From contig OY811980.1 of assembly GCA_963681505.1 (NCBI GenBank), positions 6,112,359 through 6,176,358 on the forward strand: a stretch of DNA of 64,000 nucleotides. Direction: 5' to 3'. This DNA comes from Eunapius fragilis (lineage: Eukaryota > Porifera > Demospongiae > Spongillida > Spongillidae). Shown here piece by piece: positions 12,001-31,747 of this stretch. A model generated the notes under the pieces. It did not search any database. It saw nothing but the letters and a program-made list of their open reading frames with translations, and had not been told where the DNA came from. Position numbers and translations under genes: made by a program. How positions within the stretch are numbered: position 1 is the stretch's first letter; each line of letters begins with the position of its first letter.

Positions 12001-12853
12001 CGTTCCAAGGGTTGATGTTTCAGCACACGAAGCTATGCTACAGCTCAACAGGGAGCTGAAGGAGATCTGGAAGCTTTCTGAGAATGAGAGGAAAAGAGCT
12101 TTCAAGCGCTATTACCTTGAGTGGCACCCTGATAAAAATCCTACCAGAGTGCAACTGGCCGAGGAAGTGTACAAATACCTACGGCAACAGATCAGTAGAC
12201 TGGAAAAGGGATTACCCCTACAAGACCCAACTACACAACCTGCAGAGCAACCTGTGCAATGCAATGATCCCAGAGAATCACCGTCCCCAAAATGGCAGCC
12301 ATATTTCACAGAATGGGACAAAACGGCTCACAGCCATCAACAGTCTCAGAGAAGTGAAGAGCAGAACAGTTCAAAGCCAGGGGCCAGTTCCTCTGCCCAC
12401 CATACCCCACCTGAGTGGCAACCCAATGCTGACCCCACTCAAGGGAAACTCTGGATCAGCCAAGCAGATTCAGACTGGGAGGCTGTGTGCGTCCTCCTTG
12501 GTCAAGTCTCGACCAACCCGGCCATCCCTTGTCACGTGTGCTTCCACGCTTATGAGGTGGTTAGCAAGGTGGTGAGAGGAGGGTTAATGACCGTGTGTGG
12601 ACTGAGGGAGAGGGGGGCTACCCAGGAGAATCTGGTCCACCAAGCCATGGCACTGGAGGCAGAGGTACCCCAACTTAAAGGCTGCCTTGTGCATAACGTG
12701 GAAGTTTTGGTGAGGTACAAGACATGTACGCGGTTCCCCCAGCGTGGACAACCAGCCCCTGTACGTATGTTCAACATTGAACATGCCAAAGCTGCAGAGA
12801 GGCATGCATGTGCTGTACTCCGAGCTGTGAAGGATGCCATACTGATGAGGTGA
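1..12853 (+). CDS. SACS-like: Sacsin-like giant co-chaperone, copy A (5' partial)
   Basis: The frame is open from the window edge to a TGA at 12851, about 4283 codons with no intron. The first codon, TTG, is not a start: copy B carries about 199 more N-terminal codons, so the start and the first ATPase motifs lie upstream of the window. Two Hsp90-type ATPase (GHKL) repeats are complete. Each has an N-box LQNADDA (Asn codons at 3581 and 6467) followed by a GKFGVGF or GQYGIGF glycine motif and VYHxTD. A J domain with HPDKNP (His codon at 12125) follows, then a HEPN-like C-terminus from about 12460. Known for the family: vertebrate sacsin is a large Hsp70-linked chaperone affecting mitochondria and intermediate filaments. 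No disabling mutation was seen. Identity to copy B looks to be about 95 percent by eye. Confidence 0.93.
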   Translation, partial: LDKLKKLFNALKCEGKYLLLFLRSVDTVEVYEIDSHGQQSMRFKTSIANKERDNIYARRKEFLQAVKQEYAANKYSIKRCIPLTLDFTITVEDEVVTENHWIVVSQVGSSNQGVLQCASSYQILPWVGAAMETEGSQNAAGKGRVFCFLPMPAEASSPLPIHVNGTFGLSDDRRTLKWQNSERQNDTAAEWNMILVSEVLPPCYALLIRYAIDNLQMSCAGVYHIWPDTAIVRGTEWEPLLSSLFRILTANDRIVWTDVPKDTANLALTQGEWVSLARATFIPENLSLSQLVQVHNSLHHCGIKLAEAPATVYNALKYIGCSVNYLTPTLAKEKLKTNHGCYQNLDSNKKYDLLMYCTSDNQYNTLIGLELLPLANNTFTVFQQKTKCNQPIYVCNSSYPRELFPNKDHLIVSTQNVNALNELIKIASSNWTQVQMMDQPSAVRLIKQCFPSQWQQQQQVTMRSTDTSFPATWFTTFWKWVQTYNLQEFAGEMLVPLGIEPASCVHSFEVTRLSSKSPVLYLTYNDVYQQAYLLAGLQKLPLSITSTQAHLNLVHKHLDTYVNSLTPGGILDALSNSCNEQFIQLHGTTFTMDEAYQLCVLLSQLTQTQLTPPRYKVLLNLPIFCTLNQPSALCNVFASAQASWGKKAMVQPQELPLSAKLLPDNLVIFPPLPQQLPLLRLLSDHVQVPTVMQFILNTLLPMISQGAYKPLSSMDAIMSEIIMQLPSWKRHYQSDIPALLKSLSELPFLPVGDNITSSQRRRPKDLYDPSNGELVALFQGEQVFPCAPFNEQSHLLLLRECGLMTEASPQALMNIIASISLPISGVPLPVDIVRYSRAKAVLGYLSSHPILNAAQLAIAQMAKTSSWLPINCIAPTGYPSCLQWKGSMYESHFTSLTTSFIPSIETCDLPLILGSQVFVIDCLVPHGISSAFNTVSQGPLVVAHFKEVINHHGDIPVTCLEKIVHLIYQYLTKQPAPNILLQGLPTWVYIKGKFVSPQVVAVEANGSFSLDLTPYVHILPESLASYQDLFTQCGVEMSLTPRQICSVMEMMHSGGGCEVSPERAWNIVVSILNWLTSNGEQMAQLGDGETLYVPIECDSKGPLLEDFTKVTYSDNEFLRNTLSDAGQGVPHTFLNHRVASLAHCLHLSPLSDHLSITEDAFEDAGQHEPLTVRLKNILKEYKDGLTIVKEMLQNADDAGATELNICYDARTHATERRTLFFPDMEDSHGPALVIHNNSIFTDDDFKNITKLAGATKEGSPLKIGKFGVGFCSVYHITDVPSFISRDYLHILDPTLRYLKGTVKDFSKPGKKLNLSHPILRSSKQLQPYQGLFGFSSQQSYSGTMFRLPFRSSPSEISSTMYGKHTIDEMVSDLKKCSSELVLFLQHITKITFSLIEADSSAPRYLVEIQRATQQCRGNSLVTVTTREDGGSSSSKVWLLSSSEEDTSGKRGTGSVACLMEACEGGYEVQRCIGEAFCFLPLSKSTGLPVHVSANFAVMTNRRGIWAEDSHTPHSTKESQWNLALMKTVVPKAYHCLLEALKGLEQEGKLTGYVFHSLWPLNKDLEQHHPWTALIAALYRKISSGQLMYSCNTSRWLTVGDGRFIAPSIFAISSACADTPPCIVKAIKALGTPVVDLPLAYHAYLDLVQSTITERVFITMFFQGIELFNSMQECRNDVLVTLLEVFAVEIGRNTQREKTLLSGLKGNKCVPCSPCGATLKKCSELADPQSVFASMYDDSDGKFPCIAACRSDLARQAMLKLGLHHNSVPWEFIIERAQTIGSLFMVDSNKALKRIEYILQSIHKNMTLCSRGMVPEEAKTLASVPFLPVKQKPDGYPLPWFGDRCSRFHCGRDLVTFRPDTKISCNVDLIAGSSVAILQQSTNGGFVPADVCNLLQMKTTPSCANVVAHFKQLITAVLQLEPNTIPLVNQICDAVYSYFEVSLISNAQAEISVISEIGTLCSIWTGRKFIYPNMVAKNWAWDGPYLFKIPTILDYRQKLVEFLHIQSSFTINDALRALVKMGDDFGNEPVNVECQQIIRHIVPLLLEGEVDNVSQLVMLPDQAYILCDARQLAFNDTPWCEPDEGTRFLHDNIPRPLALKLGVKAVRSLIVEKYASLFEYKMDEEAFGQSEPLTRRIQNILQDYPNDETVLKELLQNADDAKANKMYIILDKRTHGDKVFNDRWKELQGPALLVWNNTVFSPKDLEGIQKLGFGGKRSDAETIGQYGIGFNAVYHLTDCPSFVSDGDTMCIFDPHCKYAPGANEVKPGRRFDRLKGGFWEKFPDLKSSFLQDGLQNSPQDLQNELKGGSLFRLPLRHTLDMVRTSKIVPEKPDESKPLPLDAYNMQKFLDKWTPCIKQSMFFLNNITEIKFLVIEADSHHLDVIHHFSTRLDQADRKRLDNFKEAVHDFTSVSGSEPATVIYSLYLCDTQVLGDNTNKQRKEKKVEEKWLVQQGIGDIDDEMQRWNFIQQMKPRHGIAIPLEATETFKGQVYCFLPLPILSNLPVHINGHFALNTARRDLWKSTDPKRPTCEDQRHTWNKNIMSAIASSYHKFLLEGRRYVIKQEGYSTYDQVCADLARYYKLFPDIKDIWQDLAKDVYKKLIKHNSKVLAVPGQERPYLFLPADDDNMTEGTAPMLCVKWHALHSATLQDQTHFFKVDSNTLYHLSKYKKSARPVASYVQALERTTASTAIMPANGHSGTHISNQPPRTGYLCLEGPAQSGVPSIANDNDDNIRHILEMTGMVITCAPLHIRAHLKACGLTLPITTPQAVLSYYHDQVLLRNEKFPCDVEDTKFTTVANFKGFLKYILHEDKHSAGFVDKTAANGDEATASDGDQTISSEGDQTTARGDQTTASEGDQTTARGDQTTASEGDQTTARGDQTTASEGDQTTANQRDKLSGCEKEMSTVGEGGDSKLPPFPEGIPLLLTADQKIRRFDKMALVLNSNFSLLFQNSLDRFLHPDLVPLNMVSHYFLTAASGTTDTMDAYYKQNLHAMMCQILPDELLDVQAEDSLLDEDILKSLWKCFTMDAVFMSCLDIIVQTWAVLPSSSNGLFSIRSPVLPIVEPSKQSPQYDSIRDIVDILHSLGMPFLKQWVPPKAHMYCPQIKQHSKVLLNLVNLHKRSLINASSADVKIIVKYFQNIKFQEEPECAGLVRQLPLFQDIFGNLTDLSAKEAYVISNNVELCLEGVEECLKKSGAVLLDPAGEWKVLSPADINVTEIENEELYTKCIYNNFGSLNEDQRYKHLKHIRDHVYKKSCAIVKTFDPGHDCYLKAQSFLNSLKTLRCLGPDDSLKPVSDFCDHRHTIFHICKKKYNFLPGVYTSSKDEEMKWLEFFLELGMKKAISEEQDLVQLVQVVTSGQCDIPIEEASSILVNRLIDPDAQFSDVFLHKVSGMPFVPVKKLEHLTWIAPACAAPHRLQKGQETIDMAALRGSCSGRAERLVWTIMPIISLPYCSTHKLGAIVKPSFEDVVKNIVHISKGPLSNRALFDQASQEAVISKDGTDLVTVISSIFEFLKSVNDDEHPKLLKVLRTLPCIPVHAQVPNSSVLVEPSQVVARDEASEYYPFLHCLPHSLHVHFDTILQKIGVKKSIEPVHMRIVLEMAHKQSDQLHLDINTLITVHKSLKTLYTLLKKLKGNNIPNLSPLYLPDQSDKLCPSTSLVYCDNVQYSHKVLEFSSAGLSMFLLPPQLGVQEEEFCSLLPEAVRPQCISRCITKVRHMEPLPVATPLVEQLQQTLKMPEVIKAIVKIIEHLTGGGDIIMGIHSDLTRILSSIQVSCVHDLSNSISITHPACSIGMIKLKYELADESGKCHLYIDSSRQSPVSCKLVCDAMSDLVVKRLESFSRQQTYDVLLRLKEYISTLFMVQRLEDIQEVLQTLNLRLDTRELSYHDLEPKLGDPIPPTWHHRLDQALGNIFRPQEWVGYEIEDETIVFAQVAHRVESSDDTSDKLIIKYRVYITDDDIIGVIVSSLSLYKFLRGSSRPDVSSNAIGQVLVASVQPNVPRVDVSAHEAMLQLNRELKEIWKLSENERKRAFKRYYLEWHPDKNPTRVQLAEEVYKYLRQQISRLEKGLPLQDPTTQPAEQPVQCNDPRESPSPKWQPYFTEWDKTAHSHQQSQRSEEQNSSKPGASSSAHHTPPEWQPNADPTQGKLWISQADSDWEAVCVLLGQVSTNPAIPCHVCFHAYEVVSKVVRGGLMTVCGLRERGATQENLVHQAMALEAEVPQLKGCLVHNVEVLVRYKTCTRFPQRGQPAPVRMFNIEHAKAAERHACAVLRAVKDAILMR
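8461..8690 (+). repeat. Coding minisatellite in sacsin copy A
   Basis: In-frame alternating 21- and 24-nt units encode GDQTTAR and GDQTTASE in near-perfect alternation. The tract is acidic and Thr-rich and lies between the third ATPase repeat and the J domain, so it is probably a disordered linker. All units keep frame. The copy B tract at the matching place has a different unit order. Confidence 0.9.
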
Positions 12854-14387: not shown

Positions 14388-15659
14388 CCAGTTTAACGCA
14401 ATTAGTTCATGACGCATGCAAGCATGCAACATGCAACCCCCAACGTACATGTACATAGTAGACATTATTAGCAGTAGTCTCGTATGCAGACCCAACGTGG
14501 TACATTACGACTGGGTACGTGATTACGTTATCTAGTCGTGTGCATGCTCAACACATACTGGCACACACCAGCTAGTCCATTGTCATGTACATTGTCCATC
14601 GCAAGGGTTTGTGAACGATGTAGGCAGTACACGCCCACTACGCAGACGTACATTGTAAAGGCCTGGGAACGATACAAGCACATGCAGGTACCGGGCCGAG
14701 CGGTCAGTTCCGGTACTTCGAGACGACTTAAGAGTCAAAGAGAGCGCCACTATTGAAAAAATTCGATGGAGAGAATGATTTGTCATACTGCAATTTTACT
14801 AAATCATATAGATAGAGAAAATTGAGATACGCCAAATCCATTTTTTCATTTTTTTTAACGTTACCGATATTGACCGATATTAACGTAATTATGCTTATTT
14901 GAATAATGCGAAAACGAATTGTGGAAAGGGTCCGTGTAGGTCTGTGTGCCTTTCCGCCATTTCGATTTCTCTATTAATGGCACTCTTGTTTGTCCATTTT
15001 ATTGCCATTTTTTTGATCTTTCGTTTTATGACATAATGACATTTAGCCAGATATTCGCCTCAATTTCGATGGCAGCTTGGATTGGAAAGTCGAGAATTTG
15101 AACGATTGCGTAAAATTGGTTCAATTATTGGTTTTGTCAAATTTAAATATTTTTAAAATCGAACATTTGAAATTATGGTATGGAACCGAAGTGTGTCCGG
15201 AATGGAATCGGGCTTTCTAATAACTACGAAGCCACACCTATATCCCGGTTGCATGTTTACCAGTGGCGACGGAAGTGGGGGGGGGGGGCTGGAGGGTCTC
15301 GAGCCCCCCCCCAATAATGACATAGTGGGGGGCTCAGCCCCTCCTAACCAAACAATGTACAATTGTTATTCCTTGCCCGCGAGATCGCTCGCGTATACGC
15401 GACCGTTCGATGGGGAAAAGGGGGGACCCTTCTCAACTAATAATATTCATAGCGCTAGTTTTCTTGAATCGTATGAGTTTTTTCGTGCATAAATATAATC
15501 AAAACAGTCCGAAGGACTGTGCTTGTGAGGAAGTAAAATTAGGGCTTGGGGCATTAGGGGGGGCCGAAGGCCCGCTACGCCGACCCAACTTTTCACCCCC
15601 TCTCCGAATCCGCCCTCAAATTGCACCCGTCCCTCCCTTCCGACACTCTTCATTGAAAC

Positions 15660-16196
15660 TAGCCTCGTCCCCAGGCCATCAATTAAAGTTTGGGAAAAAA
15701 GACGGCCTGGTCTCCATTGCAACTCCGTTAGTGCGCATGCGCTGGCCATTACCAGAAAAAGTGGTAATCGTATATTTCGCTTGTAAACCTTTCCGTAAAC
15801 TAACTCGTTACCGGTCTGCCTCGTTCTAAGTGCCAGGCTTTTTCAATTAAAAACACATCGCGCACATGCATAAAATACATAGCTACGCGTAGTATGTGCA
15901 ATACAATGTGTAGGAGACACAACACTGCCACTAATCCTGCAAGACTTTGACGTCGTTGCCATACTACGCGTAGCTATGTATTTTGTGCATGTGCGCGATG
16001 TGTTTTTAATTGAAAAAGCCTGGCACTTTGAACGAGGCAGACCGGTAACGAGTTAGTTTACGGAAAGGTTTACAAGCGAAATATACGATTACCACTTTTT
16101 CTGGTAATGGCCAGCGCATGCGCACTAACGGAGTTGCAATGGAGACCAGGCCGTCTTTTTTCCCAAACTTTAATTGACGGCCTGGGGACGAGGCTA
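15660..16196. mobile_element. MULE-like MITE, copy 1
   Basis: A 537-bp element with 237-bp terminal inverted repeats (15660-15896 and 15960-16196), nearly identical, ending TAGCCTCGTCCCCAGGCC. The 9-bp direct repeat CATTGAAAC flanks it exactly (15651-15659 and 16197-16205). Long inverted repeats and 9-bp duplications are typical of Mutator-like elements. The 63-bp centre cannot code for a transposase, so it is non-autonomous. It sits inside F0. The near identity of its arms suggests recent insertion or homogenisation. Confidence 0.88.
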
Positions 16197-16604
16197 CATT
16201 GAAACTTACTAACTCTCCCCTCCTTAATGAACGCCATCTTTAAGTGAACGAGGCGCCTGCGGCGCCGTACTTGGCGCCTTCGGCGCCACGCTCTCTACTC
16301 CTAATTAGGGCATCGAAAGCTTCCAAAATATATATGTATTCTGGTTCAGAAGGACATAATACGAAGTATAAACTGTACATGTATGTCCGATTGAATGAGG
16401 CCAAGGGTAACGAGTATGCATTATGTTTGCTGTCTTAGCTTTCTAAGCGTATGCAGTTTCACTACTGATATATTCACCGTCGGAATATTCATAGAGGCGC
16501 GCTTGCTAAATTTAAATAGATGCCGCGGGTCGATCGGTGTCCAGTTGTTAATCGTATTCACGACACACAATTCGAGATCCAAGCATGCACCGCGCAATTG
16601 GAGA

Positions 16605-16642
16605 GTGTGTGCATGTGTGTGTGTGTATGTGTGTGTGTTGTG

Positions 16643-16716
<74 letters not shown>
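16605..16716. repeat. (GT)n microsatellite
   Basis: A GT dinucleotide run with a few interruptions at its left end, lying between the MITE and the right arm of F0. Confidence 0.97.
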
Positions 16717-16717
<1 letters not shown>

Positions 16718-17149
16718 TGAAGAATAATTCAGGCTCTATATAGTTTCTCACTCGCGTATAGTCTCCGTAGCGGAGCCAGTATATATGCAGCCATAGATAT
16801 ACTATCATATCTATGATGCAGCTAGGCTATAGAAGGACAACCGGGATATAGGTGTGGCTTCATAGTTATTAGAAAGCCCGATTCCATTCCGGACACACTT
16901 CGGTTCCATACCATAAGTTCAAATGTTCGATTTTAAAAATATTTAAATTTGACAAAACCAATAATTGAACCAATTTTACGCAATCGTTCAAATTCTCGAC
17001 TTTCCAATCCAAGCTGCCATCGAAATTGAGGCGAATATCTGGCTAAATGTCATTATGTCATGAAACGAAAGATCAAAAAATGGCAATAAAATGGACAAAC
17101 AAGAGTGCCATTAATAGAGTAATCGAAATGGCGGAAAGGCACACAGACC

Positions 17150-18230
17150 CGTGTATATTTCCGCCATTCCTAAATTTCATTGGTTTCAATTTTTTCAGAA
17201 ATTGAAAATTTGCTTTTTCTTCCAATATTTCATTGTTTCATCAAATTTAATTCATGCTGGTAAGCAATTCCGCCTGTATTGTTCTTGATAGATCTCAATT
17301 TTTGAATCAATGCACTGTATACTTCCGCCATTTCCTAATTTCAACCGTTTCAATTTTTTCAGACATTGAAAATTTGCTTTTTCCTCCAATGTTTCATTGT
17401 TTCATTAAGTTCAATACTAGAGATAATCAATTCCGCTTATGTTCTTCTCATATGATCTCAATATTTGAATCAATGCCGTTGTCGTTTTCAAATTTTCAAT
17501 TTTTTTTACATCCTAATTAAGTTGTTGCAGTGTCTCGTCCCCAGATCAAACGTATATAAGTACAGTAGCGGCTCGCACTTTTAACACCTCGCACATCCGC
17601 ACAATTGAACAAACTTTTAGCTTTCACCTATCGATCTCTATATAACAATATTCACTGTACATGAAAGCTAAAAGTTTGTTCAATTGTCTTTTGAATATCA
17701 TTATTTGTGCGGATGTGCGAGGTGTTAAAAGTGCGGATATGCGAGCCGCTACTGCACCCCGCTCTTAGCAATATCTTGGTATTCAGTATTAATGATTCAC
17801 TTCCTGTTAGCAATGGCATAGATGCTGACTGCTCAGTAGACCTCGTCCGTCGTTACATGTACTATTCATAAGTCCCGCCTTGACAAGGAAGCAGTTAAAG
17901 CCAAGTTTATTAGAGAAGCGGTAGATATACAGCTATCTAAGAGAGGGAAGTTAATTTTGGGGTGGCTCCATTGAGCTACGCACCCTCCCCCGATTTCCCA
18001 GCAACTGGAAGGCTCGTAGTCAGACTAAGTTTGGGGGGTTAACCCACCTTACCTCCACCTTTAATAGTTTGCAATTCATACATGTAAATCCCATTGGCCT
18101 CCTTCCCGGTAAGCATCCCCGTTACTACTTTCAAAACATGTGGACATACTGTTACCACATACACATGAACTGACATTCTGAACATTTTTAGTTGAAGAGA
18201 TGATCTGTTCTTGGAGTAATGAACTGACTA
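17150..18230 (+). repeat. Inverted arm, element F1 left
   Basis: This is the forward copy of a family seen six times (here, 20460-23360 minus, 23362-24540 plus, 26290-27951 minus, 27957-29760 plus, 30740-31747 minus). It starts with GTGTATATTTCCGCC and contains two related units of about 180 bp in direct tandem, each with a TTTCCGCCATT start. Then come CTCGTCCCCAGATC, a segment with TAAGTCCCGCC, and a CCCATTGGCCTC segment. It continues to about 18230 as shown by matching to the reverse copy ending at 20460. There is no coding potential; the short ORFs recurring in the copies are chance. Confidence 0.75.
17563..17754. mobile_element. Pogo/Tigger-like MITE
   Basis: A 192-bp palindromic element with arms beginning CAGTAGCGGCTCGCAC, inserted in the F1 left arm. 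Sister copies have AAGTACCCCGCTC at this place. Here TA precedes the element and CA (a mutated TA) follows it, so a TA target duplication fits. The CAGT end and TA target are those of the pogo/Tigger branch of Tc1-mariner. It is non-autonomous. Confidence 0.82.
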
Positions 18231-19901
18231 TGTACATGTGCGACAAAATATAAGTAGTATAGAAAAAATACAGCAAATACTAAATGAATGGTTAATGAGT
18301 TGCCTATAGTAGCTATATTCCAAAATGAAGTACATTCGCCAGTTACGGTGCAGATGTTACAGCGCTCACAAGTTACCGGGTGTTGACCCCTTAAAAACTG
18401 TCTCATTAACAACTTCCCCTGTGTAGAAATCTCTTACAAAATGATAATTCTTTAAAAGGAAAAGCATGTAGGAGCTATGTTGGTGAAGTTATGTCATTTC
18501 TACAGTTGACCATTAATTCATGTGTGACGTCAGTGGTAAAAGAAAATATTGCAATGTGCGTGTATATAATATAATATTATATATATGCAGCTTTTTTAAT
18601 TATGCCATGCAGTAGACGTTATATATGATTTTCTGTTTCATGCTGAAGTTCAATTCACTAAACATTCCTTGACTATGCACACATCAATATCGCACAAAAG
18701 AAGCCTGCTTTCAGGTAATCGGCAAAGGACTGCCAGCTGTGACCGTCGGCTCGATTTTCATGTCCTTCGACGGTCAATATATAATGACCGCAACCGTGCC
18801 GGATAAGGCTTAAAGCGACCTGCCCGTACCGGATCGGGAGAGACCCTAGGCGGCCGGATATCAACCGTGATCGCCTAGGCCTATTCCGCGGCATAGATAT
18901 TAAATATCTTATCTTCGATCCCGGTTAGCTGACCGTCCGCGATCGCAAGTTTATTAAATCGTTCAACCGCGGCAACACTGCCTACATGTAGGTCAAAGAC
19001 AGCATGTCTCAATTCTTGATGAGACAACGGGGGCAGCTATCAGTGAAAAATTGCGTGGAATAATTTAGAAACTATTATGTGATTGAACAGAAAATCACAC
19101 GCTTTATTGATTTTTCTGTTCAATCACGCAATGGTTTCGATATAATTATATAAATGATTCCACGCAGGTTTAGATGGATAAAATTGTCAGCAGCATGCTA
19201 GTTGGCTTTGCTGATGATTATCACATGCACGCTGTGAGTTGCAGCCGGAAAAATGTCTCTTTGGCCGCCTATTTTCCCTAAGTCTTGGATCATTTTCTGC
19301 ATGCTTTCATTATTTTGTGCCATGGATTACTATATCAACGCATGTGTGTAGTTGGGGCCAAGCAATTTGTGGCTGCCATATAGGTTAGTGCACAAACTCA
19401 AGAGGGCATATTATTAACGTACTACTATGATGTCCATTTTCCCTACAGTACTACTAAACTAGCGAGAGGTGAGTTCAGATGCTATTCGCTTGCACAATAC
19501 TAAATGGCGTATCACGTTGCTCTCGTCTGGACCATAAAACGGATGCGCCTTGGTACAATAACCCAATTAAGCGTACAAACTGGCAGAGTCTATTAAAGGG
19601 TCAGAGAGTCAGATTGGGTGCAGGTGCATGGAATTAATCATTTTTAAGAGGAAACCACGGGTCCACAAGTTGAATAAATGTTTGGCAATGTGTTGGACAA
19701 AATATGAACGTTCTATGCTGGTTTTAGGAAGCCGGTAATCGCAGCACATGTAGGCCTAGCTCCTCTGATGAACAAGATGTGGTAACATCATCATGGTATT
19801 GTATAGAACTCAACATGTTTTTTTATTACATTGCACATTTGTATCCACTACATTTCAAATCCACAATAACCTGGAAACAAAGAGTGCAAGTGATTACCTC
19901 C

Positions 19902-19934
<33 letters not shown>

Positions 19935-20459
19935 CCGAATTCCTGCATCTGCCCCAGTCTGCTGCATGTAATCAGTTGCGGTCTGATTTTGGATGGGGGG
20001 GGAGGGGGGGGAGGGGGGGATATGGGGAGCACTGTAAACTCCTCCATTGGGATCTGGGATGGAGCTCCACGCATAAGCTTTGCAATTGTTGTATTTTGGC
20101 ATTAAGAATCTAAAAGCAAACGGCAATGGATGCTATTTGTTTTAAGAGGAGGGAGCTAAGGAGGACGGGCCCCGGATTCAGAAGTTTCCTCTGTCCCTCA
20201 CACTACACAGGCAAAGGCCAAAATCCATAATTAAACAAAGTAAAATAGCAGGGCTGTAAAACTCCCAGAGGCAGTTTTACCACAATGTGCATGGATCGGT
20301 AGCATGTGGTGGTCAGTTGACTCTGCAATCCTCTTTTGGTCACGATCCATTTGCTCAAAAAGGAATCTTGATGGTTGAACGTGACAATTTTGATAGCAAT
20401 GCATGCAACTATATTTTATGTTATCAGCAACAACAATTGCAATTATGAGTACATAAGGT
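18231..20459. other. Centre of element F1, no gene seen
   Basis: This unique sequence lies between the two inverted arms. It contains a GC-rich patch at about 18720-18970, a long hairpin at 19052-19167, a C homopolymer at about 19904-19933 and a G-rich run at about 19995-20019. No ORF here has recognisable motifs, so no transposase can be assigned. Confidence 0.5.
19052..19167. repeat. Imperfect hairpin / small palindromic element
   Basis: TGCGTGGAAT at the left is answered by ATTCCACGCA at the right. Inside, GTGATTGAACAGAAAATCA pairs with a TGATTTTTCTGTTCAATCAC-like arm. It may be a small MITE remnant; no target duplication was found. Confidence 0.6.
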
Positions 20460-21005
20460 TATACATTACTCCGAGAAAAGCTCAGAGTCAATTGAACCAT
20501 CTCTTCAACTAGAAATGTCAGTTTATGTATGTGGTGCCTGTATGTCCACATATTTCTGCAGATCATAAATTTGAGATACAAATATATGCATGCACATGTA
20601 ATAACTATAACAGTGGCAACGGCCCCTAAATTGGCATTTCTAGCCTTGTGCGTACAAAGCCCACATATATGATATCCCTTAGTTAACACTACCTTGTTGA
20701 AGGTGTGAGTATAGTAACGGGGAATTCTTACAGGGATGAGGCCAATGGGATTATATATATGTATTAAAGGTGGAGGTAAGGTGGGTTACCCCCCCCCCCC
20801 CCCCCCCCCCCTCCCCCCAAACTATGTCTGGCTACGAGCCTTCCCGTTGCTGGGAAAGGGGGCGGGGCGGGGGCGTAGCTGAATGGAGCCACCCCAACAT
20901 TAACTTCCCTCTCTTATAGATAGCTACACATCTACCCCTTTTGCTTTGCTTCTCTAATAACCTTGGCTTTAACTGCTTCCTTGTCAAAGCGGGACTTATG
21001 AATAG

Positions 21006-23171
21006 TTTTTTTTTTTTTTTTTATATATATACTAAACTTACAGCAAATACACACACATACAGCCATTATACATATCACATAACTTATGAGAATTTTTAAC
21101 CAATAAATGGTTCAATGCATGATTGAGTAAAGAGCGGCCCCATCCTCAAAGCCCAGGCCACTTCTCCACTTTACTCTGGAACCCCTTAGGCATAAGCTGG
21201 CTGCTCTGATGATGGCAAATGAAAGCCTTGCTCTGATGTAGCCACATGTTTGTGCATAAGACTTTTCCCATTTGCTTGCAACACATGTGGCCATTCTCTT
21301 CAGGAAGTGCTCTGCTTCCCGGTGAAGGAGTCCATCAACTGAAATCACAAAGGGTGTAAAAGTACCTCTCCGATCTTCAACTGCTTGCCTGTAAATTCTC
21401 TTTTTTTCCTGAGCACCCGATTCAAGAACTGATTCTGGCGAGCGATTGCTGTATGATGGGGCATCTGTATCAATGACCTTGAAGTCAAAGAGCGCCTCTG
21501 CCTGAGGTTGCCAAACACCACGCACCCCCAAATCCAGCCTCAACCCTGAGTCATCCACTTGTGTTTCTGCCTCTCTAACGATTGGCTCTCTGACAACCTG
21601 TGTCCACACCTGTGCTGCAATATCTCCAACGCAATCTCTGATCTCATTATGTCTCTGGATAACTAAGTCCACCAACCTTACAGTCAAGAGCATCTTGCAA
21701 TGTTAATGAGGCTCCACAACCATCACACTTCTGTCGGGTCACGCATATAGCGAACCACTAACCCATCTCTTAATTGAGCTGGAGACAGGTCAAAGTGACA
21801 AGTAGCGATTGGAAGGACAGATAACCATGAACTGCATTAAAATACTGTCAAGTGCAGATTGGTAAGTCTGTTCCTTGGTGGTAACATGGTGTTTTCTAGC
21901 ATCCCAAAGAGTATCTAAATGTTGTACTGGATCAAAGACATCAACTCCTTTCACAGCTTCAACTAACACTTTAGTTCCTTGTCTGGATGTCTGGTAAGCT
22001 AAAGTTGCTGTATTAGTGGGGTCAAAAATCCCTAGTCCTGCTAGAGATGTTGGTAAAGCAAACAAAGCCTCCTCTGCTTCAGTGACACCTGCACCAAGCA
22101 TAGCTGGAAAGAATTGCTTCTTGATTTTCTCATTTAGTGGTGTAAAAGCATCTGCACAGTCTGGTACAACTCTCTGGAGGAAGTCCCATTCACACTGCAA
22201 AGACTTTGTCAAAGATGCAAATGCAGCCTGGGGTGCCTTGATAGCAGCTTGGGACAATTTATCCACACAGTCTACCCAAACATCAACCTTTTCTCTGACA
22301 AATTGCACACAAAATTCCCTTTCACCAACCACACCTCCAAGAAAGCGATGTCCAGTAACGACTTTCACTCCCACATTTTGAAAGGCACTCTTGGCAATTT
22401 CCACATACTTCGATGCTACTACCACTACACTCTTAGTGGGTTCTGGGAAATAACCATAAGTAGGACCTCGTTCGATTAGAAGATCCGGCCAAGAATGGAT
22501 TGAATTCAATGGTCCAGCACATGCAGAATCATCAGCATACCAGCTCTGTTGATATTGCTCTCTGCAGCGAAGAGAGTTCACCAGTGGCATCATTGCTACA
22601 GCATATAGCAACATGGACAAAGGGTCACCCTGTGTTATTCCCTCTCTGCTGTAAAGGAATTCCTCAGAATTCCGTAACAGCAACACAGCAAAACCCGCTC
22701 TGTATGTGTTGAAAAGAAACCTACTGCATCTAGGCCATAGTATTCTTGCATTCCACAGAGCAGTCACCCGGGACATAAGATTAAATGCATTTACTGCATC
22801 CACTAGTAGAAAACCCCAGCCATCACTAGAGAACTCATCATATAAATCAGTCATAGCATGGATAGCACCTTCGACACCAGATTTCAGTCCTGTAGCCAGT
22901 TGCTCTGCACCACATAAGTCTTGAACATCACCCCCAGTGACTAGAGCCATGGTTTTTCCCACTATCCTACGCAAACTTTCACCAATACCAATAGGTCTAA
23001 CACCAGGACATTTATCTAAGGCCACAAGGCGATTAGCCATCAATGCCTTGATTTCAGTCCACTCTACAACCGAATTTGCGAGTCTACGGGTCAGTGCAGC
23101 AACTGCTTCTCTCAAATGATTGCTCTTGATTCCGTATCTTAATAAAAACCGTTGCCATTGAATGGTACATT
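21006..23171 (-). mobile_element. Non-LTR retrotransposon insertion (5'-truncated)
   Basis: Read on the minus strand, the insert begins at 23171, carries reverse transcriptase and endonuclease remnants, and ends in a run of 17 A residues (plus-strand T at 21006-21022). AATAG lies on both sides (21001-21005 and 23172-23176) as a target duplication. The sister arm at about 17860 has the uninterrupted site TGTACTATTCATAAG, so the empty site can be read in the same window. Poly(A), target duplication and truncation indicate target-primed reverse transcription. Confidence 0.88.
21112..23115 (-). pseudogene. Retrotransposon RT plus restriction-like endonuclease, frameshifted
   Basis: The 441-codon ORF 21790-23115 holds reverse transcriptase blocks: GVRPIGIGESLRRIVGK (residues 38-54), VDAVNAFN (105-112, catalytic Asp), TQGDPLSMLLY (161-171) and WYADD (192-196, catalytic Asp pair). 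A second ORF, 21112-21693, has RHNEIRD, then a Leu-Asp-Leu and Asp-Phe-Lys pair spaced like a PD-(D/E)XK site. This is as in LINE clades with a C-terminal restriction-like endonuclease. A CxxC...C knuckle at about 21679-21727 lies in yet another frame between them. At least two frame changes therefore break the original polyprotein, and this copy is dead. The exact clade is not determined. Confidence 0.85.
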
Positions 23172-23361
23172 AATAGTACATGTAACGACGGACGAGGTCT
23201 ACTGAGGAGTCAGCATCCATTGCATTGGTAACAGGAAGTGAATCATTAGTACTGAATACCAAGCTATTACTAAGAACGGGGTACTTATATACGTTTGATC
23301 TGGGGACGAGACTGCAACAGCTGAATTAGGATGTAAAAAATTCAAAAACGCAGTAATATAC

Positions 23362-24540
23362 GGTCCGTGTAGGTCCGTGTATATTTCCGCCATTCCTAAA
23401 TTTCATTGGTTTCAATTTTTTCAGAAATTGAGAATTTGCTTTTTCTTCCAATATTTCATTGTTTCATCAAATTCAATTCATGCAGGTAAGCAATTCCGCC
23501 TGTATTCTTCTTGATAGATTTCAATTTTTGAATCAATGCAGTGTATATTTCCGCCATTTCCAAATTTCAATCGTTTCAATTTTTTCAGACATTAAAAAAT
23601 TATTTTTCCCTCCAATTTTTCGTTGTTTCATTAAGTTCAGTTTCTAGAGATGAGCAATTCCGCTTGTGTTCTTCTTATATGATCTCAATATTTGAATCAA
23701 TGCCGTTATGTATTACCCTGTTTTTTAATTTTCAATTTTTTTTGCAGCCTAATTAAGTTTTTGCAGTCTCGTCCCCAGATCAAACGTATATAAGTACCCC
23801 GCTCTTAGCAATATCTACTTTGGTTCATAAGTCCCGCCTTTACAAGAAAGTTAAAGCCAAGTTTGTTATAGAGGAGCAAAGCAAAAGGGCTCCACATTTA
23901 AGAGTTTGCAATACATATTTATAATCCCATTGGCCTCGTCCCTGTAAGCATTCCCCGTTACTACTCAGAACTCACACCTTCAATAAAGTAGGGTTAACTA
24001 AGGCATATATGTGTGCACAAGGCTATGGAAATGCCAATTTAGGGGCTTTTGCCACTGTTATAGTTGCTACATGTGCATGTTTATAATCTGCAGAAACATG
24101 TGGATATATACTGAGCCTGTAGCTGCCATCAGTCACCATTGGAACATATCACAGGTATAAGGAACACTTCTTTAAATATGGAATTGGTACCAGAAGTACA
24201 TTATTACTTTATTAGAACAAGCATATGAAGAAAACACCACCTTAATGAAAGTACTTGTGTTGCATGGCATATGAGATGATGACTATCCAACTCACAATTA
24301 AATTTATAAATATTGGCCGGACAGTGTCCAGCTAAATCGGCCTTCTGGGGTTACGCATGCATAAAAAATTGTAGGCGGATACATAAATCAATGTATCCTC
24401 GCAACTGTACAACGCTTAATCTCGTGCATGTCTTCCCACACTATTTGCCCCTCCCTTTGGTGGTCTAGCTATTTTCTTTGCCGTAAGAACAAAGCTCTCC
24501 AACCCACCCATCAGGTACATATCTCCAGGTTACTCAAACA
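23362..24540 (+). repeat. Inverted arm, element F2 left
   Basis: It begins with two tandem copies of GGTCCGTGTA, then TATTTCCGCC. It carries the ~180-bp dimer, the CTCGTCCCCAG segment and a longer inner part ending near CATATCTCCAGG. The copy at 27957-29760 matches it closely up to this last motif and then continues differently. From 24541 to 24952 I see no gene. Confidence 0.75.
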
Positions 24541-24952
24541 TTTATATGATATATTATGAGGTTACATGCATGCAAGTCAGTATTGTGTGTATGGACAATG
24601 GTATTCAAAGTGATTCTATAGTCACAACACAACACAGCAATGCATGGCTGTGTGAATATATGCAATTGGCGTTCAAACAGTTTAAGTTAATTCGATGCTT
24701 GCCCCAAACAATTTAATTGTAGTAAAATACGCCCCCAAAATGCAAATAAAAAACGATTGCTGTGACGTTTTGAATATTTATCGATACCCATGCCCTTATT
24801 ACTTACCTATGCCCTTATTCATATTATTTATTATTTAAAGAAAATATTGGTCCGGCGGCGGCCGGACCTGCCGGACCGGTTCCGACGCCGATGCAGATGG
24901 AGCTATACTATTACAGCAACGACAAATTATATGCAACAGGTTCATGGATTAT

Positions 24953-25438
24953 TAAACTCGTCCCCAGGCCATCAATTAAAGTTTAGGAACAAAGATGGCC
25001 TGGTACCTATTGCCACTATGTTAGTGCGTATGTGCTGGCCATTCCACGTAATTAGCTTGTAAACCTTTGACATCGTATATGTATAAGCTACGCGTATACG
25101 TATACGATGTCAAAGTCTTTTAGGATTTGCTACAGTGTTTTGTCTCGTACACATTATGTCGTACTTTTTTCAAGGGAATCTTTGGCATCAGATCTTGCAA
25201 ACAGGCTCAGCAAGGTTGCCGATTTCCCAGTGGCTTCTGAGATGGTTTGTCCAGGTTCATTTGCATACCTTGCAAAACAAACTTGCTTCGCGCGGAACGG
25301 TTTACGGAAAGGTTTACAAGCTAAGTATACGATTACGTAGGTAATGGCCAGCGCATGCGCACTAACATAGTGGCAATAGGTATGGTACCAGGCCGCCATT
25401 TTTCCTAAACGTTAATTGACGGCCTGGGGACAAAGCTA
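24953..25438. mobile_element. MULE-like MITE, copy 2
   Basis: Its ends CTCGTCCCCAGGCC and GGCCTGGGGAC match the MITE at 15660-16196, with the same AATGGCCAGCGCATGCGC block inside. The 9-bp direct repeat ATGGATTAT flanks it exactly (24944-24952 and 25439-25447). The arms are more diverged than in copy 1. The centre (about 25110-25300) is different and longer, so it was acquired or retained separately. Confidence 0.85.
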
Positions 25439-26289
25439 ATGGATTATATTATCAAAGGTGCAAGAGGTCCCAAGACAGTGTAATATTTTTGCATGTGACA
25501 TTATACATCATTTTTCCTACTTTTTGATCACTTAAAATGCATCAGTGCACTCCAAGTTCATATGCACTATGACTAACTTGATATGCAGTGGGGGGATCCA
25601 GGAATTCGGCGAGGGGGTCCGACATGAAAAATTAATGAGGGAGAGGGGCGGAAGAGGTGCCGTGTCGAACTAAGGGTATGGAGGAGAGAAGTAACATGCG
25701 CATATGCAGAATTCAAGATATAATATAGAGGGAAAGCGCTGAACTTTTTAAAAATTCGCATTAGATAATTATATTCATATCGTTATTGAGGGCCGAAGGG
25801 GGACGTTAGCTGCTCTTACAGCAACTTGTCACATGCAGAGGAGGTACATTGTACGCGGTACGCAGGTTATTTTTATTTTTCAATTACCGCGTACACTCGC
25901 CGTACAGTGTATCTCCGCTGTTGCGACTTGCTATATTAACAGCAAAAGGTAATAGGCCTTCAATGCTTCGGCCAGATAAGGACTTATACAACGTGGCATA
26001 ACAGTCAAACTTCCCGCGGAATGCAAAAAACTTTGACCGCGGAGCATGCACGCTAGACATTAAGCATGGCATGGCGGAAGTGCATGGTGACCAGCAACTA
26101 AAACGACAACTGAGCCGGCCTCCCGTGCTTGCCGCGAGCGTGTCCACATTTGATCCACGGTAAGGTATGCAAAGTGGGGCAACCCGACGAAAGCCAATGG
26201 CCTGCATGCGAATAATACTAGTATTATCGTCCATGCATGCAAAGGCCCATGCATGGAAGTAACCATGCATGCATTGAAACTTTTCATAT
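25439..26289. other. Centre of element F2, no gene seen
   Basis: Mostly unique sequence with no convincing ORF. A 137-codon minus-strand ORF (25884-26297) has no motif and looks random. Several GCATGCATGC-type short palindromes occur at 26210-26280. Confidence 0.45.
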
Positions 26290-27324
26290 AGAGGCATGCA
26301 GATAGGAGCCTCACCTAGGGATCAGAGGCAGTGGCTAAGAGTCCCATACAGGATATGACATAGGGCCAGAAGGAGGAGGTTCATTATGACCTAACTGTAG
26401 AGCCAAAGGGAGAGTGGTGACTCTTGACAAACGCGAGGTGCATGGTAGTATGGTAAAGGTGAGTTCTCTACAACCCGCAAAATGAGGCTAAATATGCTGA
26501 CGGAGCAAGGTGCATGAACATGCGATCCTTATTCCAAGGCCTCCGACTTTACATGGAGTGGGGCTTGCAACCATAGCACGGTTATTAAGAAGGTTCAATG
26601 TCATAAAGTTGGAAACTTATTATTTTAAGGTGCATGATGTCCGTCACAAGTATAAATTAATTGCAAATGCATTGCGGAGCAATAAGAGGCTTTCATGAGT
26701 GCAAAGTGATTCAACCTCGACCTGAAAAAGGGCGGTCTTGTCATGATGGACGAAAAAATGGACTCCACATCCACTCAATTTCCACAGCATGGAATATCTA
26801 CGTAATGGATATTACATTCAAGTCATCAATATGGACTGTTAAATTAATAGCTAAAGAACTCCTAGCTCTATACATGACGCGCGTATACCTGGAGATATGT
26901 ACCCGATGGGTTGGAGAGCTTTCCCATTCATCATTACCGATCGTTTTGTTGATCTTTTAAAATTATGTGGTACTTGCAGGGAGATACATGCAAAAATTGT
27001 CCCCTTTCCCTATACGGCTAAAAAGTGGTTTTAAAAAAATTATCCATTAACTATCCAAACACGCTCGCTAAATCAGAGTCCACGGTATGGCGGCAATAAT
27101 CGGATCGGGTGTCTTTCTAATTATTTCATGATGCTTCAAGTCCTACAGAGGACCAGATCCACTCTATAGGGTCTGATTCCATATTGTTCTAAGTAAAATT
27201 TCGTTTCTAGCTATTATAAATATGTATCGCAAACTCTTAAATGTGGAGGTAAGGTGGGTTAACACCCCCCACCCCCACCCCAAACTATGTCTGGCTACGA
27301 GCCTTCCCGTTACTGGAAAAAAAA

Positions 27325-27366
<42 letters not shown>

Positions 27367-27951
27367 AGGGTGGGCGTAGCTCAATGGAGATACCCCAACG
27401 TTAACTTCCCTCTCTTACATAGCTGCGTATCTCCCCCTTTTGCTTTGCTTCTCTATAACAAACTTGGCTTTAACTTTCTTGTAAAGGCGGGACTTATGAA
27501 CCAAAGTAGATATTGCTAAGAGCGGGGTATTTATATACGTTTGATCTGGGGACGAGACTGCAACAACTTAATTAGGCTGCAAAAAAATTGAAAATTTAAA
27601 AACAGGGTAATACATAACGGCATTGATTCAAATATTGAGATCATATAAGAAGAACACAAGCGGAATTGCTCATCTCTAGAAACTGAACTTAATGAAACAA
27701 CGAAAAATTGGAGGGAAAAATAATTTTTTAATGTCTGAAAAAATTGAAACGATTGAAATTTGGAAATGGCGGAAATATACACTGCATTGATTCAAAAATT
27801 GAAATCTATCAAGAAGAATACAGGCGGAATTGCTTAGCTGCATGAATTGAATTTGATGAAACAATGAAATATTGGAAGAAAAAGCAAATTCTCAATTTCT
27901 GAAAAAATTGAAACCAATGAAATTTAGGAATGGCGGAAATATACACGGACC
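26290..27951 (-). repeat. Inverted arm, element F2 right
   Basis: Reverse copy ending TACACGGACC at 27951. Its part 26290-26930 matches 29170-29750 in reverse (for example the CCAGAAGGAGGAGGTTCATT block), and 27240-27951 matches 23362-23900 in reverse. A middle stretch (about 26930-27230) has no match in the other copies. It includes a run of 41 G at 27325-27365. Confidence 0.72.
27325..27365. repeat. 41-nt G homopolymer
   Basis: An uninterrupted G run inside the F2 right arm. The sister arms have shorter C/G runs at the same place (about 20791, 28466 and 31136), so this is an expandable tract of the repeat family. The length may also be affected by assembly error. Confidence 0.9.
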
Positions 27952-27956
27952 CGAAA

Positions 27957-29760
27957 TTGCTTACCTGCATGAATTGAATTCAATATTTCATTGTTTCATC
28001 AAATTCAATTCATGCAGGTAAGCAATTCCGCCTGTATTCTTCTTGATAGATTTCAATTTTTGAATCAATGCAGTGTATATTTCCGCCATTTCCAAATTTC
28101 AATCGTTTCAATGTTTTCAGACATTGAAAAATTGCTCTTCCCTCCAATGTTTCATTGTTTAATAAAGTTCAATTTCTAGAGATGAGCAATTCCGCTTGTG
28201 TTCTTCTTATATGTTCTCGATATTTGAATCAATGCCGTTGTCTATTACACTGTGTTTTTTTTTTTTGCATCCTAATTAATTTGTTGCAGTCTCGTCCCCA
28301 GATCAAACATATATAAGTACCTTGCTCTTAGCAATGCCTACCTTGGTTCATAAGTCCCGCCTTTACAAGAAAGCAAGTTTATTAGAGAAGCAAAGCAAAA
28401 GAGGTAGATATGCAGCTATGTAAGAGAGGGAAGTTAATGTTGGGGTGGCTCCATTGAGCTACGCCGCCCCCCCCCCCCCCCCCCCCCTTCCCCAGCAACA
28501 GGAAGGCTCGTAGCCAGAAAAAAAATTTGGGGGGTGGGGTTAACCCACCCTCCCTCCACCTTTAGTGGTTTACGATAGATATATATAATCCCATTGGCCT
28601 CATCCCAGTAAGCATTCCCCGTACGCATTCTCCGTTACTACTCACAACTCACACCTTCAGCAAAGTAGGGTTAACTAAATACATGGGCTTTGTACGCACA
28701 AGGCTATGGAAATGCCAATTTAGGGGGTTATAGTTATTACATGTGCATGTTTATGATCTGCAGAAACTTGTGGATACCGAGCCTGTAGCTGCCATCAGTC
28801 ACCATTGGAACATATCACAGGTATAAGGAACACTTCTTTAAATATGGAATTGGTACCAGAAGTACATTAGTACAAGCATATGAAGAAAGTACCGCCTCAA
28901 TGAAAGTACTTGTGTTGCATGGCATATGAGATGATGACAGTCCAACTCACAATTAAATTTACAAATATGGGCCGGACAGTGTCCAGCTAAATCGGCCTTC
29001 TGGGGTTACGCATGCATAAAAAATTGTAGGCAGATATATAAATCCATGTCTCCTCGCAATTGTACAATGCTTAATCTCGTGCATGTCTTCCCACACTATT
29101 TGCCCCTCCTTTTGGTGGTCTAGCTATTTTCTTTGCCGTAAGAACAATTAAAGCTCCCCAACCCATCGGGTACATATCTCCAGGTACGCGCGTCATATAT
29201 CGAGGTGTTCTTTAGCTATTTAACAGTCCATACTGATGACTTGAATGTTATCAATTACGTAGATATTCCATGCTGTGCAAATTGAGTGGATGTGGAGTCC
29301 ATTTTTTGTCCTTCATGACAAGACCGCCCTCTGTCAGGTCGAGGCTGAAACACGTCTGCACTCATGAAAGCTCTTTTTGCTCTGCAATGCATTTGCAAAT
29401 AATGTATACTTGTTATACCTTAAAACAATAAGTCTCCAACTTTATGACAATGAACCTTCTTAATAACCGCGTGCTATGGTTCACTCCATGAAACACCATG
29501 AAAAGTCGGAGGCCTTGGAATAAGGAGTGCTGCATGTTCATGCACCTTGATCCTTCAGCATAATTAGCCTCATTTGCGGTTTTGAGAACTCACCTTTACC
29601 ATATACTACCACCGCGTTTTCAAGAGTCACCACTCTCCCTTTGGCTCTACAGTTAGGTCATAATGAACCTCCTCCTTCTGGCCCTATGTCATATCCTGCA
29701 TGGGACTCTCAGCCACTGCCTCTGATCCCTAGTCTGAGGTGAGGCTATCTATCTATCTAT
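27957..29760 (+). repeat. Inverted arm, element F3 left
   Basis: Forward copy abutting F2. Its outer end is missing and replaced by a short foldback: GCTTACCTGCATGAATTGAA at about 27960-27979 is the inverse of the sequence at about 28004-28023. It runs through the dimer, the CTCGTCCCCAG segment and the long inner part, and ends in a small (CTAT)n run near 29745. Confidence 0.72.
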
Positions 29761-30739
29761 CTATCTTCCTATCTGCACGCCTCTATATGAAAAGCTTTAA
29801 TGCATGGATGGTTACCTCTATAGGTGTTTTATATGTATAGATCTAGAGATAAATTAAGCAAAAATGACACAGAGGCATTATCTCAGGCCTTTAAAAAGGT
29901 GCCTTGTGTGGTACTAGATGCTCCTAAAAGCATTCCCCATTGGTATTAGTATAGCGTGCATGGTTGTGTTTCAATGTAAAACACATAATGAGATGTGTAT
30001 ACAGTGAATCATATAAATGATGGCATGCATTAGTCTGGGTACCCGACTGATCGGTTGCACTATCATAGTGATAGTGCAACCAGTCAGTACTCTGACTATT
30101 AGGCATGCATATGCGCGCATGTGCACAGGATATACAGCTAAAACTACATTTATACACAATTTCACTACCATCAACGGCATATGAGTCTGGAATCTAGCCT
30201 ATAGGCGGACCTTGGAAGTACATGCAAGTCGATCGTGCAGTTTAATACTGTAGGTGTAGTATTTGCAAGGACTGGTGCAAGAATTAAAAAGTAAGTTAAA
30301 AAAAAAACCACTATGAAACAATAAAATGCGCAACAATGATTTAACATCTTTTAACACGCGGTTTACGACAGATGCGGGGAAATATTGGGGAATATATAAT
30401 ATTCATAATTCCCTCCTATAGATTTTTTTCTAAGTTAATCATGTTTAATAATACACCAATCATTTTACATGAAATTGGAAAAGTAAAGAATCAGCAGGCA
30501 TATACAATTGTCGTATTGTAACCTTTAAAAGCCAGCTCATTATAGTTTTAACGATGTGCCTCAGATTTCAAGGTACAGATCCGATATCCTAAATGGATGC
30601 AAAAGCGAATGTTATAAGAAAAATGCATGCAACAGGAGTGAAGGATTGGTAGCCATGGATGCGCCTGGTTCGCTGCTGCACATACTTCAGAGGCTGTGAT
30701 GGATATAATAAATATGGGAATTAAGGGGCAAAAATGTCC
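29761..30739. other. Centre of element F3, no gene seen
   Basis: AT-rich unique sequence without recognisable ORFs. A perfect 13-bp hairpin with a 3-nt loop lies at 30053-30081. Confidence 0.45.
30053..30081. repeat. Perfect short hairpin
   Basis: GGTTGCACTATCA is followed after TAG by its exact reverse complement. It is not followed by a T run or near a gene, so it is probably just a palindrome. Confidence 0.8.
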
Positions 30740-31747
30740 ATTCTGGTACCAATTCCATATTTAAAGAAGTGTTCCTTATATACCTGTGATATGTTCCAAT
30801 GGTGACTGATGGCAGCTACAGGCTCAGTATCCACATGTTTCTGCAGATCATAAACATGTAATAAATATAACAGTGGCAAAAGCCCCTAAATTGGCATTAA
30901 CATAGCCTTGTGCGTACAAAGCCCACATATACTTAATTAACCCTACTTTTGCTGAAGGTGTGAGTTGTGAGTAGTAACGTGGAATGCTTACGGCGAATGC
31001 TTACAGGGATGAGGCCAATGGGATTATATATATATATATATATATCTATCGTAAACCACTAAAGGTGGAGGTAGGGTGGGTTAACCCCACCCCCCAAATT
31101 TTTTTCTGGCTACGAGCCTTCCTGTTGCTGGGAAGGGGGGGGGGGGGGGCGTAGCTCAATGGAGCTACCCCAACGTTAACTTCCCTCTCTTACATAGCTG
31201 CATATCTACCTCTTTTGCTTTGCTTCTCTAATAAACTTGGCTTTAACTGCTTCCTTGTCAAAGCGGGACTTATGAGCCAATCGTAGGTACATGTATTGCT
31301 AAGAGCGGGGTACTGATATACGTTTGATCTGGGGACGAGACTGCAACAACTTAATTAGGATGCAAAAAAAAAAAGAAAATTTAACAACAGGGTAATAGAC
31401 AACGGCAATGATTCAAATATTGAGATCATATAAGAAGAACATAAGCGGAATTGCTTATCACTAGAAATTGAACTTAATGAAACAATGAAAAATTGGAGGG
31501 AAAAGCAATTTTTCAATGTCTGAAAAAATTGAAACGATTGAAATTAAAAAATGGCGGAAAAAAACAGTGCATTGATTCAAAATTTGAGATCTATCAAGTA
31601 GAATACAGGCGAAATTGCTTACCTGCATGAATTGAATTTGATGAAACAATGAAATATTGGAAGAAAAAGCAAATTCTCAATTTCTGAAAAAATTGAAACC
31701 AATGAAATTTAGGAATGGCGGAAATATACACGGACCGTACACGGACC
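30740..31747 (-). repeat. Inverted arm, element F3 right
   Basis: Reverse copy of the same family. It ends at 31747 with two near-tandem copies of the terminal motif (CACGGACC GTACACGGACC on the plus strand). It matches 27980-28870 in reverse over nearly 1 kb. Its outer end lies only about 176 bp before the SHOC1 start codon. Confidence 0.75.

Follow-up and report, generated by a model that had tools for sequence, protein, structure and literature searches.

Abutting long-inverted-repeat elements with a common tip in the sponge Eunapius fragilis and their insertion into one another's ends

Four elements end to end in the window

The DNA analyzed here, referred to as the window, is a 64,000-nucleotide stretch of the genome of the sponge Eunapius fragilis (contig C10, positions 6112359-6176358; the host assembly comprises 219 Mb in 24 contigs). 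Positions 14929-31747 of the window consist of four long-inverted-repeat elements, denoted F0 to F3, that lie end to end. Four such abutting elements had been proposed in an earlier note made from the letters alone; their arms were recovered by an inverted-repeat search of the window, and their tips were read directly. The elements had been regarded as one chain with a shared end motif. They do abut and share a tip, but F0 belongs to one family (denoted A) and F1, F2 and F3 to another (denoted B).

F0 (14939-17149, 2211 bp) has complete tips, GGTCTGTGTG...CACACAGACC. The inverted-repeat search placed its arms at 15009-15251 and 16838-17080 with 99% identity, and these extend to 14939-15251 and 16838-17149 once the tips are included. 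On the forward strand the element is flanked by two identical copies of CGTGTA (14933-14938 and 17150-17155), and GGTC stands beyond the left copy (14929-14932). This GGTC is the outer four nucleotides of the left tip of F1, severed by F0, and the right copy of CGTGTA is at the same time nucleotides 5-10 of that tip. F0 landed at nucleotides 5-10 of the F1 tip. Because a newcomer inside a resident tip duplicates about these nucleotides, the doubled GGTCCGTGTA unit is explained; the earlier note had seen the doubling correctly but had missed that it is a target duplication, made by insertion into a tip. Further to the left, on the reverse strand, a weak match of only 19 bp (14911-14929; 100% identity to family-D ends, E value 8e-5) may be what is left of the right end of a family-D element.

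The other three elements are preserved to different degrees. In F1 (17150-23361) the segment 17149-17415 matches the arm type of F2 and F3 at 94%; its left tip is the one stumped by F0, it carries a retroelement, and its right arm lacks the outer ∼330 bp, as it breaks off near 23361, that far short of the end point of a 97%-identical relative in L027. F2 (23372-27951, 4580 bp) has both tips complete; the search gave arms at 23372-23742 and 27581-27951 with 99% identity, and the arms agree at 99% over 515 bp. F3 (27952-31736; arms 27981-28264 and 31376-31659, 90% identity) has a complete right tip but has lost the left one, in place of which ∼29 bp of inverted arm sequence begin at 27952. This segment (27952-27981) repeats nearby arm sequence in inverted form and looks as though a broken end had snapped back and then been copied. 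Two orphan tips were read directly, GGTCCGTGTA to the left of F2 (23362-23371, forward strand) and GTACACGGACC to the right of F3 (31737-31747, reverse strand). Since the other halves of both are gone, we can only infer that they arose by insertion into tips, a process that both fit; the left one would be the stump plus the duplication of a resident now lost.

The arms of F1, F2 and F3 contain a direct dimer with a unit of 164 bp, rather than the ∼180 bp given in the earlier note, whereas the arms of F0 are of another type. The dimer occupies 23377-23703 (forward strand) in the left arm of F2, and further copies lie at 27620-27946 and 31405-31724. The centres of the elements differ within the window, as had been noted, but they are not randomly unlike, a possibility that is ruled out by the common centres of subfamily members: F3 is 94-97% identical to L024 and L025, centre included, and F1 is 90-97% identical to L027. 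F0 carries a palindromic insert (15653-16203; arms of 244 bp, 98% identity), and a relative of this insert lies in F2 (approximately 24955-25440). The unrelated retroelement that interrupts F1 (∼21006-23168, reverse strand) has a reverse transcriptase (RT) frame at 21793-23169, with a weak RVT_1 match, and a second frame at 21115-21702; copies elsewhere in the genome show 93-99% protein identity, and the related family in the host genome is very large. The chain is flanked by two giant forward-strand frames with Sacsin domains (PF25794), of 4283 aa (2-12850) and 4392 aa (47235-60410), which look paralogous.

Element families and chains in the host genome

Searches of the genome with arms and tips mapped at least 324 ends, which fall into seven families: E (76 ends), A (70, including F0), H (64), C (39), G (30), B (29, including F1-F3) and D (16). 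The total is a lower bound because one tip search gave 207 matches, of which about 100 were entered; before counting we omitted the inner repeats of the B dimer, entries already present from another tip search and a few degenerate rows, and five further ends on contig C23 were included only in the count of target duplications. The tip GGTCYGTGKR is common to the families, which have little else in common: TTTC[CG]GCCATT is found in A, B and C, and the first ∼22 nucleotides are shared by D and E. By BLAST, arm homology between families was not detected; the few matches (A-D, B-E, D-E, D-G, E-G) are interior and either short or of low complexity. Controls with reversed patterns gave 6 matches against 207 in one tip search and none against 93, 92 and 94 in the others, so the matches exceed chance.

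Representatives carry outer terminal inverted repeats (TIRs) of ∼1.35 kb in A (84% identity), 0.59 kb in B (99.7%), 0.29 kb in C (97%), 0.70 kb in E (97%), 0.83 kb in G (92%) and 1.65 kb in H (98.4%). The usual element lengths are ∼4.7 kb for A, 3.7-4.6 kb for B, 5-6 kb for E, 6.2 kb for H and 8.4 kb for G. The arms might have been ordinary dispersed single repeats in random orientation, which the earlier note had named as the case that would speak against it. Instead, among 114 same-type neighbouring ends 0.3-30 kb apart, 98 face inward (left end then right end); 9 are both forward, 5 both reverse and 2 outward. At L042 (C11:5293900-5299800), a family-E copy with a centre of 5000 N, the tips and the duplication TATATA are legible.

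An eighth family, I (tip GGTCCGTGTACTTTTAGAGCACTCC, TIR about 2.7 kb), was seen within a composite on contig C5 (L030/L031, C5:10488894-10503617), so that at least eight families carry the common tip. In this composite ∼175 bp of B tip stand on each side of the family-I body, and the whole is flanked by its own duplication, CTGTGT, which suggests tip capture.

Identical flanking 6-mers were found in 24 of the 38 pairs read at both ends, and in 24 of 31 where both tips are complete. Two hallmarks of a class II TIR DNA transposon are present, namely terminal inverted repeats with defined tips and a target duplication of fixed length, here 6 bp. Isolated copies are flanked by unrelated words (GTAATA, CATAAA, TATATA, TAGCTG, CATGTG, TACTCT, CCGTAG, CGGGCA and GCGCTA). 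Tip-derived words, by contrast, are duplicated on both sides of eight chain members: CGTGTA twice, TGTGTG three times, and TACACG, GTGTAC and CTGTGT once each.

Chains like that in the window recur in the genome. Among 53 neighbouring ends at most 300 bp apart, 44 are a right end followed by a left end, 6 are both forward and 3 both reverse. Spacers of at most 60 bp separate 40 such right-end/left-end neighbours, where uniform placement predicts 0.03, and these 40 are drawn from only 51 within 30 kb. The longest chain (C9:8110481-8160473) reads C, E, D, A, A, C fragment, A. Contig C9 (9.79 Mb) holds 73 of the 324 ends (14.5 expected) and 17 of the 134 clusters (6.0 expected), with most of the long chains.

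The spacers at the 44 junctions peak in two narrow ranges, negative numbers denoting missing bases of one tip: −5 (4 junctions), −4 (8) and −3 (1), and 5 (1), 6 (8) and 7 (1). Of the 40 close junctions, 23 fall in one of these two registers. The tips tell the same story, for GGTC is absent from 19 of the 111 tips read, 15 of which run into the GACC end of a neighbour. These 15 lack their outer 3-5 nucleotides; 14 join a complete neighbouring tip directly, and in the remaining one some extra bases intervene. In the 14 direct joins the break follows nucleotide 4 in nine cases, nucleotide 5 in four and nucleotide 3 in one.

In the first register the newcomer sits 3-5 nucleotides inside the resident tip, and about nucleotides 5-10 of the tip are duplicated, as at F0. 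The same pattern is seen where a C tip holds B (TACACG, L017), where an A tip holds another A (TGTGTG, L033 and L063/L064), where D tips hold E (GTGTAC, L045) and G (CGTGTA, L052/L053), where G lies beside an A tip (TGTGTG, L017/L057) and where B sits at a junction between two A elements (CTGTGT, L030/L031). In the second register the newcomer stands at the edge of the resident and reuses the resident's 6-bp duplication. The chain on contig C8 (5497314-5509962) thus shows the order CAGAAT-E-CAGAAT-E-CAGAAT, and A elements that abut another A are flanked by CATAGA on C23 or TTTGAG on C6. As these words are arbitrary, the target here seems to be the resident's edge rather than a word. Unlike families abut in both registers, which, written as cuts at −6/0 and +4/+10, stand 10 bp apart.

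The tips are hit far more densely than the element bodies: the 16-bp tip zones, 5.2 kb in total, took 23 insertions in exact register, and the bodies, 824 kb in total, took 7 nested elements, a ratio of ∼520 (∼9000 against the genome average of mapped pairs), figures that rest on mapped ends and on classes picked afterwards, with one of the seven nested cases being a mis-pairing of the F1 left and F3 right ends. Tips, 6-bp duplications and registers are read from the sequence itself, as is, at several junctions, the identity of the later partner. Taken together, these data demonstrate that the chain is real, recurrent and base-exact, and insertion of the elements into their own kind of tip with a 6-bp duplication is well supported.

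We searched the elements for coding content. At E≤0.01 no Pfam domain was found in the six frames of A (L035), B (L018), G (L021), 10 kb of D (L046) or the cores of E (L043) and H (L048); nor did the copies or parts of A, B, D, E, G and H that were scanned contain a protein-primed DNA polymerase B domain (PF03175). Transposases of the MULE type (PF10551, 45 matches) and the P type (PF21787, 57 matches) are present in the genome, but no MULE match lies inside the 98 mapped spans and no P-type match inside a mapped span, and both were set aside as movers as far as the mapped spans are concerned. The only transposase found in a mapped span is an 858-aa frame with a Transposase_21 (tnp2) domain (L038, 5060-7633, reverse strand; C9:9750359-9752932) in a 22.5-kb A copy. 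It does not identify an autonomous member, as it belongs to a nested 17.3-kb insert that lies within an (AC)n tract and has short CACAG ends of its own, CACAGCGGTT..AACCGCTGTG. A gypsy-like set of frames in a 15-kb A copy on contig C7 (L040) likewise looks nested when judged by eye. The RT frame in F1 had appeared to be a candidate gene. The retroelement was dismissed as the driver of the chain because the 14 close copies checked (93-99% identity) all lie at least 32 kb from any mapped end, and because a very abundant family (150 of 6745 first-look candidates scored) is the source of the RT-like C-terminal pieces found in copies of A and D.

Proposed mechanism and competing explanations

We consider it likely that the elements are non-autonomous TIR transposons moved in trans by a putative transposase that prefers element ends as its target. 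With their long TIRs, common tip GGTCYGTGKR and 6-bp duplication, F0-F3 would be non-autonomous DNA transposons that probably move by cut-and-paste rather than by another route, and one and the same transposase probably mobilises at least eight families in trans. Its integration complex would prefer element ends, cutting with a stagger at about +4/+10 (or +5/+11) within the resident tip or, in the alternative register, at −6/0, where the resident's own duplication lies. The choice of target may be steered by transposase bound to the end of the resident; the 10-bp distance between the registers corresponds to one helical turn and would be consistent with docking on that end. Repeated insertions would account for the stumps (GGTC), the doubled tips and the end-to-end chains, all of which later deletion and recombination between arms would blur. 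More tentatively, the elements may form an undescribed eukaryotic superfamily, characterized by GGTCYGTGKR and a 6-bp duplication, whose complex docks on a resident end, cuts at two places one helical turn apart, stacks chains and makes composite families by tip capture. Since the registers are base-exact, the mechanism is testable.

Several observations weigh against this interpretation. Seventeen of the 40 close junctions lie outside both registers, and the register classes were set only after the data had been inspected. Identical flanking 6-mers are lacking in 14 of the 38 pairs, some of them chain members; the 22.5-kb A copy, a chain member, is flanked by CAGCAG and CTTGGG, and two pairs completed later are mismatched as well (C9:8149194-8155410, CACACG/TACACG; C5:10484242-10488888, ACCTAG/TGTGTG). 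An E element nested in a B arm (L026) stands at about nucleotide 288, not at the start of a repeat unit. Finally, no transposase was found in any representative scanned, so that common mobilisation of the families is at most probable.

Could the transposase simply favour words such as CGTGTA or TGTGTG, which the tips happen to hold, with no docking involved? The duplications of the first register are indeed tip words, and elements nested in B arms stand near similar words at the starts of 164-bp units: G at nucleotide 176 (CCGCCA, L021) and D where unit 3 begins (ATAGAC, L028/L029), a position at which L059 and the right arm of F1 also carry remnants. The words of the second register (CAGAAT, CATAGA, TTTGAG) and those around isolated copies (GTAATA, CATAAA, TATATA, TAGCTG, TACTCT) are, however, unrelated, and we regard plain sequence preference as unlikely. 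Somewhat less probable still is that the chains predate integration, circles or end-to-end dimers having formed first and then integrated as blocks by a copy-out/paste-in route. IS30 makes such dimers and integrates beside its own inverted repeats (PMC9333248), and a flank that was carried along could account for the exact 6-bp spacing between unlike elements. Against this, the word in the middle of the C8 chain is the same as those at its outer ends (CAGAAT, three times over), and in eight cases a single chain member is flanked on either side by a duplication of its own, which indicates stepwise insertion.

The remaining explanations dispense with targeting altogether. Dispersed elements could have been joined purely by rearrangement, through end joining at short tip homologies or recombination between arms. 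Rearrangement does occur, as the broken tips of F1 (right) and F3 (left) and the pairs without a duplication attest, and the −5 spacer (4 of 44 junctions) could be an overlap at GGWCC, a self-complementary 5-mer. The −4 spacer, the commonest inside the tip register (8 of 44), allows no such overlap, and end joining does not produce direct repeats of 6 bp at the newcomer's far end, of which there are eight cases; as a sole cause, rearrangement is very improbable. We give least credence of all to the idea that insertions merely accumulate where selection permits and abut as a by-product. The excess of ends (73 of 324) and clusters (17 of 134) on C9 would agree with it, but tolerated regions predict no base-exact spacing; of the 51 right-end/left-end neighbours within 30 kb, 40 are separated by at most 60 bp.

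Targeting of element ends by a transposase, the reading that we favour, would bear on how transposons choose their sites. Targeting is commonly viewed in terms of DNA sequence, chromatin and host tethers; here the target would be the transposon's own end. Such a preference would steer new copies away from genes, create long palindromic arrays that are prone to rearrangement, and bring ends and bodies together in new ways. The order of insertion would be recorded in the stumps and the shared duplications.

Comparison with known systems

No known family combines every feature tested. Titles among the matches listed in a literature text search for the tip motifs GGTCCGTGTA, GGTCTGTGTG and TTTCCGCCATT included none on transposons, and the titles and abstract openings among the matches listed for foldback elements, self-insertion and tandem TIR elements do not describe these tips; Repbase and most subscription journals lie outside the scope of these searches.

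Kinship with the Drosophila FB elements, to which the earlier note likened the internal dimer, is not supported. The dimer is only a shared look, and FB duplications measure about 9 bp and those of Galileo about 7 bp, against 6 bp here. Family B, with its 164-bp dimer, does share with foldback elements the long TIRs built of internal tandem units. The foldback element Tetris is described as having long, internally repeated TIRs, non-coding middles, no autonomous copy found and duplications of 8-10 bp (PMC4079207), which differ from the 6 bp observed here; what is reported of Tetris in that source includes no tip-directed chains.

A 6-bp target duplication is reported for IS3EU, GingerRoot and Polinton (PMC10045372, PMC12730594), in agreement with our elements, and also for hAT6. 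The reported ends are, however, TA..TA in IS3EU (TAYGG..CCRTA) and mostly TA..TA, occasionally TG..CA, in GingerRoot, whereas ours are GGTC..GACC. MULEs duplicate 8-11 bp rather than 6 bp, and a transposase of the P/Galileo or MULE type was not found in the mapped spans. Polinton and hAT ends also differ from GGTC..GACC. Insertion into P ends can occur with Drosophila P elements, although the titles among the matches listed in a literature search include none on it. For IS256/MuDR taken together, duplications of 4-10 bp are given (PMC10045372).

Arrays of TIR elements have been described in plants. In the non-autonomous SaTar MULEs of guayule and rice, unrelated TIR elements are lined up in arrays and, according to the authors, no member interrupts another, an architecture that they call not previously described (PMC5907723). 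As reported there, SaTar elements are 0.4-1.7 kb long, are joined through microsatellites and show 10-bp duplications at other sites. By comparison, the elements described here measure 2-22 kb and have 6-bp duplications, and the junctions that we read consist of exact tips or short words, not of microsatellites.

A close parallel in target choice is bacterial. In E. coli, IS30 is reported to integrate beside its own inverted repeats, giving end-to-end copies, besides using ordinary targets, where it makes a 2-bp duplication; targeting of inverted repeats (IRs) yields junctions between left and right repeats (IRL-IRR) via branched intermediates (PMC9333248). Insertion next to an element's own inverted repeat is likewise what we observe. 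The sponge elements differ from IS30, as it is described there, in that the host is a eukaryote, the duplication is 6 bp, members of unlike families adjoin each other, and there is a second register within the tip.

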